Source: Chrysochromulina tobinii
Lineage: Eukaryota > Haptophyta > Prymnesiales > Chrysochromulinaceae
Direction: 5' to 3'
Length of the DNA: 25,263 nucleotides
Assembly: GCA_001275005.1 (NCBI GenBank)
Contig: JWZX01003410.1
Coordinates: 1 to 25,263, forward strand
Shown here: piece by piece, positions 1 to 25,234 of the stretch
How positions within the stretch are numbered: the stretch's first letter is position 1
How the letters are laid out: each line of letters starts with the position of its first letter
The notes under the pieces: generated by a model
Seen by the model: only the letters and a program-made list of their open reading frames with translations
What the model was told of the DNA's origin: nothing
The model's database searches: none
Made by a program: the position numbers and the translations under genes

Positions 1-197
1 TTGTAACTTTTCGTTGCATTCTTTTAACACTAGTAAGAGAAAAAGCCGAAATTCTTGAATTTTACTTTTCTCAAATTCTTGATTTTTTGCGTTTTTATAT
101 CCGTTTTTAACGTTATTTTTTTCTTTGACTAAACCTACACCTTGTGTCTTTTAGCTTTTGTGTTTTATTAGTAAAAACACCTTCTTTTTGTCTTTTC
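1..197 (+). repeat. remainder of repeat copy B, leader of orf437
   Basis: Shared blocks with copy A: GTAACTTTTCGTTGCATTC, GTAAGAGAAAAAGCCGAAAT, TTCTTGAATTTT, then CTTTTAGCTTTTGTGTTTTA and GTAAAAACACCTTCTTTTTG. The repeat ends just upstream of the first ATG of orf437, so the leader of that gene is repeat sequence. No promoter motif is recognisable. Confidence 0.8.
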
Positions 198-200
198 ATG

Positions 201-260
201 ATGTCTTTTTTTTCTTCACTAAAACAATTTTCTATTAAGCAAATTATTCCTGTTCTATTA
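201..260 (+). repeat. diverged duplicate of the atp6 5' coding end
   Basis: Aligned with 9066-9124, about 49 of 60 bases match, with one single-base gap in the T run. It encodes the first 20 residues of orf437, of which about 14 match Atp6 (for example M-S-F-F-S, Q-F-S-I, I-I-P). Confidence 0.85.
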
Positions 261-1514
261 CGTGTTTGTAACTACACTACAAAAAATACACTGGAAACAG
301 TCTCTACAATTCCAGCCGAGGCGAGTACACCAAGCACTGCACGCTCTCGAGGCATGGCTTATCAAAATGCAGTTGCAGAGCAACTACGCAAAACTTTAAA
401 CACGTTTGGTTTTCAGGTCATCGACAACACCGATAAGAGTAACAATAAAGAGGATTACTCTCCTATCGATATCCTTATAAAGAACAATAGTGGTGTCACT
501 ATTGGTGTCGAAGTTAAGGACTTTGATGCTATGTCTTTTGGGACCACTACTTTAGTTTTTTTTGACCACGACCAAGCCGTTGAGACGCTTCTTGACTTTA
601 ATAAGTGGCCTAAAGAAGCTCAACAAAAAGCTATACAAATAATAGAGGACGAAAAGGAAAACCGACAGTCTCAACAAATGCTTACGCTTTCTAACGTATT
701 GGCTAACGAGACCGACAACGCTTGGTTGCACTGAATTTCTTGCTCCCACCCCCTTCAACAATTGTCAAGAGGTTACTGTCTAACGAAAAGATCCATGAAT
801 AACCTAGCTCAACAGGAGCTGTGGTTACAAGTATTCGCTGCTAACTTCCCTCGGTGAATAAAAACAAGAAACGATCTCTTGATCGATGCCGCGCACCCAG
901 GATTTATGGCTCGTCAGCGCTTAAATTCTAGTATCTTTGGTGGTGAACTGCTTCCTTTTAAACAGGAGGACATGACCCTACGGTCTTGACGTAATTTTGT
1001 TGAAGACAATCACCTTTACCAAAACCAACGTTTCCTTTTACCGGATACACCGACATCAACAACGAATCTCACTGGTCCAGATATTCTCCGTGCGTTTTAT
1101 CGTAATGCTGGAGCATCGTACATCCAGATTCGTAACAAAGGTCTTTTTCATTTAGGTCACGATATGTTGAATCTTGGTGTGCCGTTGTTTAACCCTGTCA
1201 ATTGCGGTTGTCATATATATCTTCGCGTACAAAAAGACACGAATGTATCGGCTCCTACAAGTATTTTTAATGGTTCTGCCACGATTGCCTTGTGCGCGGA
1301 CACTGTAATGTTCCGTCAAAATTTAGAACCATCACCTTATTCTTTGGATGGTGATGGTGGGTTCCAACAACCCGCAATTAACAGTTCTTCCTATTTTGAC
1401 GTGGTTAAACGTCTTAAAAAGGTAAACATGCTTAAAAGCCTTACCGTTGTAGACCCTATCAAAATTGTGGACCCTATCAAAAAAAAATACAAAAAAAATA
1501 AGAATACCCGTTAA
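201..1514 (+). CDS. orf437: putative PD-(D/E)XK-type endonuclease with an atp6-derived N-terminus
   Basis: Read with UGA as Trp, the frame is open for 437 codons; TGA codons at 732, 855 and 987 would otherwise break it. Start ATG 201 (ATG 198 also possible; an in-frame GTG lies at 144). Residues 1-20 resemble the start of Atp6 in this window (about 14 of 20 identical). Residues 60-106 hold a PD-(D/E)XK-like core: Glu60 in a predicted helix, P-I-D at 88-90, then after 13 residues E-V-K at 104-106 at the end of a hydrophobic strand. A later stretch rich in beta-type sequence (YIQIRNKGLFHLG, then a C-G-C motif) resembles DNA-binding or specificity halves of restriction enzymes, but I cannot name a family. 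The tail is Lys-rich with a tandem VDPIK repeat. It ends 7 nt before nad4. By eye it uses more C-ending codons than its neighbours, suggesting acquisition. Mixed TGG and TGA Trp codons show it is adapted to this code. The nuclease role is inference. Confidence 0.75.
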
Positions 1515-20734: not shown

Positions 20735-20806
20735 AAGAGTTTAGTTTAGTCGGTAAAATCCAGAATTTCAAATTCTGTGTGACGTGTTCAAATCACGTAA
20801 CTCTTG
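20735..20806 (+). tRNA. trnW: tRNA-Trp (TCA), reads UGA and UGG
   Basis: Acceptor AAGAGTT/AACTCTT perfect. Anticodon stem CAGAA/TTCTG around TTTCAAA gives TCA, which decodes UGA as well as UGG. This matches the many in-frame TGA codons at conserved Trp positions across the window. T arm ACGTG-TTCAAAT-CACGT. Confidence 0.95.
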
Positions 20807-24945: not shown

Positions 24946-25234
24946 CGAAAAGTTTAATTTGTGCATTAAAACACAGTAACTTTTTGTTGCATTTTTTTAA
25001 CACTGTTAAGAGAAAAAGCCGAAATTCTTGAATTTTATTTTTCTCAAATCCGTGATTTTTTGCTTTTTTTGATTTAATTTTAAGCCGAAAACTCCCTGCA
25101 AAAACCGTTTGATTTTACCCATTTTTGGGTTTCGTGATACTATACCTTGTATCTTTTAGCTTTTGTCTTTTGCTGGTAAAAACACCTTCTTTTTGTCTTT
25201 TCGTTAAAATTATTATTTTTATTTTTTCACTTCA
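24946..25234 (+). repeat. copy A of a ~290-bp divergent tandem repeat in the main non-coding region
   Basis: This copy begins CGAAAAGTTTAATTTG and continues with TTAAAAC..GTAAC, AACACTGTTAAGAGAAAAAG, CCGAAATTCTTGAATTTT, and near its end CTTTTAGCTTTTGTCTTTT and GTAAAAACACCTTCTTTTTG. The same blocks occur in the same order in copy B. A central stretch (about 25070-25140) is unique to this copy. With 24905-24945 it forms the only non-coding stretch over 300 bases; no gene is seen in it. Confidence 0.85.

Follow-up and report, generated by a model that had tools for sequence, protein, structure and literature searches.

The mitochondrial contig JWZX01003410.1 of the haptophyte Chrysochromulina tobinii (GenBank assembly GCA_001275005.1) was analysed over its full 25,263 nucleotides, called the window below. 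Near its start it carries an open reading frame (ORF) that probably encodes a nuclease of a viral PD-(D/E)XK family. The contig is part of a 53-Mb eukaryote assembly and carries the rRNAs, tRNAs (located with ARAGORN) and respiratory ORFs of a mitochondrial genome in which UGA is read as Trp; the haptophyte host presumed in a preliminary description of this DNA was supported. A gene reported by ARAGORN as 'tRNA-SeC (tca)' at 20735-20806 is probably the mitochondrial tRNA-Trp(UCA) reading UGA. According to Hovde et al. (2014, PMC4226036), the mitochondrial DNA (mtDNA) of C. tobin was first assembled as one contig of 25,263 bp, equal to the window in length, with the remainder in a large repeat region of 9.3 kb. 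The features relevant to the ORF are as follows.

3..197, + strand: mitochondrial repeat copy; its well-aligned part stops right before the ATG of the ORF (repeat alignment)
198..1514, + strand: putative viral-type PD-(D/E)XK nuclease ORF with 437 codons (or 438) under code 4; fits orf457 (GTG start at 144)
351..365, + strand: motif I region, G51-x-x-Y54-Q55; 68/68 other family members have Glu at its last position
378..380, + strand: E60, named in the preliminary description; E/E/D/D in the mitochondrial-type proteins, acidic in 3/68 others
462..470, + strand: P88-I89-D90; D90 invariant (motif II), P88 not conserved
510..518, + strand: E104-V105-K106; E and K invariant (motif III)
732..734, + strand: TGA read as W178; Trp in 3/3 homologues
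855..857, + strand: TGA read as W219; Trp in 3/3 homologues
987..989, + strand: TGA read as W263; Trp in 3/3 homologues
1077..1199, + strand: C-terminal signature, residues 293-333, the part matching phrog_26930; of 72 rows, all keep Y307 and G314, and 71 keep Q309
24976..25202, + strand: second copy of the repeat flanking the ORF, at the far contig end (repeat alignment)

Translation of 201-1514 under table 4 yielded 437 amino acids and a stop, with in-frame TGA codons at W178, W219 and W263, which confirmed the 437-codon frame with three UGA tryptophans proposed earlier. Three homologues of 427-439 amino acids (92, 46 and 46% identity) were found by single-sequence and alignment searches of 5.8 billion proteins, performed at word-limited sensitivity and with E values up to 10. 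The frame is intact across mitochondrial-type proteins that are only 46% identical, and the ORF is very probably a genuine coding sequence. The two repeat copies share 204 of 234 aligned bases (score 130.5, versus at most 43.5 in 100 shuffles). Since the well-aligned repeat ends at base 197, directly before the ATG at 198, and homologue P0002 begins with MMSFF, the real start would most likely be the ATG at 198 or 201. The direct repeats at both contig ends probably mark the borders of the unresolved repeat region (9.3 kb).

A GTG at position 144 gives 457 codons including the stop, as in the published orf457, whose first codons would lie inside the repeat, and the ORF is therefore very probably this orphan. 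In PMC4226036, orf457 is described as the sole novel ORF of the full C. tobin mitochondrial genome, lacking strong homology to NCBI proteins. Neither an assigned function nor a viral affinity of orf457 was found in the open-licence papers searched.

All four mitochondrial-type proteins, that of the ORF included, matched phrog_26930 (best E 3.9e-6, C-terminal part). The corresponding proteins of Kyanoviridae (for example PSSM2_192 and PTIM40_181, annotated only as hypothetical) are homologous to the ORF across both halves and share with it a signature of G-x-x-Y, D, E-x-K, Y-x-Q and G-L. Unlike the ORF, they have the motif-I Glu, use code 11 and lie in a phage replication-gene neighbourhood, and the cyanophage proteins P0005-P0007 measure 225-287 amino acids versus 437. 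When 50,697 phage records were searched by tblastn with P0003, ten were reported at E values up to 10; only the two records of cyanophage P-TIM40 had an E value (2e-4) under 0.001, and two rows from Aeromonas phages were chance-like. The P-TIM40 protein as query retrieved ten records with E under 0.001, each from a cyanophage or a marine virus. When IMG/VR was scanned with the cyanophage alignment, 97 of 223 pattern matches proved to be relatives; scanning again with more distant members gave 152 of 261, a set overlapping the first. Run against 1,008 sequences, a profile made from 24 viral sequences only recovered all four mitochondrial-type proteins at E values between 3e-21 and 8e-17, with two domains per protein covering both halves, while 0/1,000 shuffles and 0/4 reversed sequences were matched. 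In profile-profile comparison the probability was 98% over 223 columns. One peptide-pattern scan of prokaryote genomes yielded two relatives among 20 pattern matches, on a Nonlabens contig and in a Heimdallarchaeota metagenome-assembled genome (MAG), and the family looks rare in such genomes. Judged by this homology, the ORF belongs to a family of putative restriction-enzyme-like nucleases that is otherwise seen almost exclusively in bacterial viruses.

Searches with the mitochondrial-type proteins themselves gave little. The marginal Pfam matches, to NERD (E 0.0036) and REase-ARP (E 0.033), both fell short of the curated cut-offs, and no LAGLIDADG or GIY-YIG model was among the matches listed up to E 10 in this general Pfam scan. 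The PDB search returned nothing of note, NCBIfam one chance-level match and PADLOC none; viral contig scans using these proteins alone gave no match, and tblastn against plasmids two chance-level matches only. Within the source assembly, P0001 matched the mitochondrial contig only; P0005, too distant a query to be informative, matched nothing there, the mitochondrial contig included. The family domain was also seen behind a cytidylyltransferase-like domain in P0109 and P0110 (PF01467 in P0110, which P0109 resembles) and inside phage ORFs of 1,711-1,902 amino acids (L044, L061, L063, L065 and L079); L044 and L065 gave nothing above cut-off against Pfam.

Conservation was assessed in alignments A3 (24 of 55 distinct viral ORFs, excluding 85% near-duplicates, the five loci with 1,711-1,902 amino acid ORFs and fragment L045) and A5 (46 of 104 proteins). 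D90, E104 and K106 are invariant in both the 28-row and the 72-row alignment and constitute the D...(D/E)-x-K core of PD-(D/E)XK nucleases. The P-I-D and E-V-K motifs of the preliminary description thus stand at 88-90 and 104-106 and supply this core, whereas its E60 and P88 are not conserved; the invariant helix Glu of the family aligns with Q55 instead of E60.

An AlphaFold model of the ORF built from four sequences reached a pLDDT (predicted local distance difference test) of 30 and was set aside. The predicted structure of a viral relative has the characteristic PD-(D/E)XK fold and aligns to HhaI over residues 6-237, with 184 aligned residues versus 86-112 for resolvases, in agreement with the restriction-enzyme-like second half suggested before. 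Unlike this structural match, no sequence match to HhaI or HinP1I was obtained in the PDB searches; these two are type II restriction endonucleases, whereas the ORF has no partner methylase in the window. The earlier assignment was borne out by homology, and a PD-(D/E)XK nuclease of restriction type is a well-supported prediction for the ORF.

HhaI and HinP1I recognise GCGC. This site occurs once in the other mitochondrial ORFs (19 pieces, named from their translations, with one overlapping nad5 piece excluded) versus 8.8 times in synonymous shuffles, 0 of 300 of which were as low. CATG is depleted too (9 observed versus 23.9), and neither site is depleted in the nuclease ORF, which holds three of the window's five GCGC. 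GCGC avoidance was rejected as a weak and unspecific sign of HhaI-like specificity.

The G+C content at third codon positions is 0.363 in the nuclease ORF, whereas 20 pieces of other mitochondrial ORFs range from 0.188 to 0.313. Half of its Trp codons are TGG, while cox1 has 13 TGA and no TGG. This composition fits a later arrival, partly adapted to the organelle. In an unrooted tree of 30 representatives of 159 of the 167 ORFs and two of the four mitochondrial-type proteins, the latter formed one clade (99% in the SH-like approximate likelihood ratio test) on a long branch among viral rows, a placement that carries a long-branch warning. Because the tree is unrooted, the direction of transfer rests on distribution and composition, which suggest movement from virus to mitochondrion.

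The explanation favoured here, with moderate confidence, is that Chrysochromulina mtDNA acquired an endonuclease gene of this viral PD-(D/E)XK family and kept it as a solitary, metal-dependent DNA endonuclease. The gene would have entered the mtDNA of the Chrysochromulina lineage beside the large repeat block and would be translated in the mitochondrion with UGA as Trp; in its product, D90 and E104 are the predicted Mg2+ ligands, and K106 would assist in activating the water. The family membership, the conserved core, the retained frame and the predicted fold of the viral relative were observed here, whereas catalysis by the protein is inferred. Its most likely role, proposed with less assurance, would be that of a selfish nuclease, of restriction type or similar to a homing enzyme, whose target is rare or limited by structure, because no dedicated methylase was found on the contig and frequent cutting would be fatal to the genome that encodes the enzyme. 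A narrower version, in which a marine-phage restriction-type endonuclease persists in haptophyte mtDNA as a solitary selfish nuclease biasing mitochondrial inheritance without a linked methylase, is tentative and rather doubtful.

Several observations weigh against an active enzyme. The motif-I Glu is replaced by Gln in all four mitochondrial-type proteins, and this substitution, as read from the alignments, is the strongest single result of that kind, so that activity cannot be assumed. Since every other family member retains the Glu, confidence is lowered in the favoured explanation and in a resolvase, and raised in an inactive enzyme. The mitochondrial-type proteins further contain a long insertion when aligned with their viral relatives, and a MutH-like mitochondrial nuclease of katablepharids was not toxic in E. 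coli, according to PMC8099122. The ORF could encode a derivative with weak or no catalytic activity that is retained for binding DNA or for some other purpose, or be a gene heading to decay; the invariant D, E and K and the frame intact at 46% identity speak against decay, and this alternative appears unlikely.

A Holliday-junction or branched-DNA resolvase, recruited for recombination of repeat-rich mtDNA, would fit the position of the ORF next to mtDNA repeats. Eight of nine PDB sequence matches of the family profile at E values up to 10 are archaeal-type resolvases, one of them below 0.01. Compared by eye, PIDILIK and IGVEVK of the ORF fit motifs II (hDhhXp) and III (hhh(E/D/Q)hK) of the archaeal-type Holliday-junction resolvase/Mrr group, as defined in PMC8805305, and the archaeal-type resolvases Hjc and Hjc_15-6 are like the viral members in these motifs and in active-site spacing. 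The gp41 primase-helicase lies near the nuclease at 57 of 87 relative loci. Other neighbours at these 87 loci resemble the cyanophage nucleotidyltransferase (63), the DUF6267 protein (55) and MazG (53), with 13 loci giving no match to the queries, which were cyanophage genes taken from three of these same loci. However, the motif-I Glu is described as strictly conserved in the resolvase/Mrr group in PMC8805305, and archaeal-type resolvases keep it, whereas the mitochondrial-type proteins have Gln and an extra C-terminal half. The ORF therefore lacks one of the features that define the resolvase family. This half is long throughout the family, the best structural match is HhaI, and two family lineages adjoin DNA methylases. 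On balance, a resolvase is judged improbable.

These methylases lie at a few loci. In one viral lineage, represented by three contigs, the genes for the nuclease and for a PF01555 DNA methylase (E 2e-38) overlap; on viral contig L046:2545-4112 the overlap is one base, a candidate phage-borne restriction-modification pair. In the Heimdallarchaeota MAG (L090:2641-5924), the nuclease has a PF01555 methylase on either side (E 1e-36 and 1e-16), both on the opposite strand, likely a restriction-modification locus. Both arrangements look like restriction-modification cassettes, and adjoining methylases were confirmed by Pfam in these two lineages only. When flanks of at most 4 kb were screened with loose motifs and by BLAST using four queries, 8 of 167 loci had a methylase-like ORF nearby: six represent three contigs fetched twice, one is the Heimdallarchaeota MAG and one (L142) has a motif only. 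This count may be low, since a weak match to an Eco57I methylase (E 0.0004, short of the curated cut-off), located in P-SSM2 in the gene upstream of mazG, escaped the screen. Restriction-modification as a general role of the family was not supported. Cyanophage P-SSM2, a carrier of the nuclease, has in its annotation a dam methylase as well (L091:43729-44697), and dam is the second foreign-looking gene reported from haptophyte mtDNA.

Six-frame searches of the mitochondrial contig with PF01555, PF02086 and PF00145 gave no match, in keeping with the earlier remark that the window has no methylase; the 9-kb repeat lies outside the window, yet PMC4226036 reports no novel ORF other than orf457 for the full genome. 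The cognate methylase that accompanies the nuclease in type II restriction-modification was not found beside the ORF with these three models. The whole assembly gave no PF02086 match, one PF01555 match and twelve matches, on nine contigs, to the C5 methylase model PF00145. The single N6/N4 methylase match (PF01555, E 2e-36, C406:13519-14202) lies in a 602 amino acid ORF in nuclear-type DNA of 67% GC; inspected by eye, the protein has no obvious presequence for import into mitochondria. A split restriction-modification pair, in which a nucleus-encoded methylase imported into mitochondria restrains the nuclease, is possible but unsupported and seems very unlikely: the N6/N4 and C5 methylases of the assembly, the PF01555 neighbours of family members in a phage lineage and an archaeal MAG and the mitochondrial restriction-modification system of katablepharids (PMC8099122) agree with it, but nothing ties C406 to the nuclease, its protein shows no evident presequence, and most family loci have no methylase detected within their short flanks.

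The favoured explanation, a solitary endonuclease acquired from a viral family, can be compared with two known cases. The katablepharid mitochondrial system is of HpaII type and flavobacterial origin, has an adjacent cytosine methylase and was tested, as stated in PMC8099122. The ORF resembles it as a putative restriction-type nuclease encoded in mtDNA and apparently acquired horizontally, and differs in being solitary, viral-type and predicted from sequence. Mitochondrial restriction-modification is thus already known, and what is new here is a solitary nuclease of a viral family. A dam gene is present in the mtDNA of Emiliania and Gephyrocapsa, as reported in PMC8283788 and PMC9551565; like the ORF it is a DNA-acting, foreign-looking gene in haptophyte mtDNA, but it encodes a methylase and belongs to another haptophyte order. 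Mitochondria are considered to acquire genes rarely. An orphan mitochondrial ORF is now given a family, a fold, a likely viral source and predicted catalytic residues, and an unannotated nuclease family of marine phages its first functional hypothesis. Together with the haptophyte dam and the katablepharid system, the ORF suggests that mitochondria of algae and protists repeatedly acquire genes for modifying or cutting DNA.
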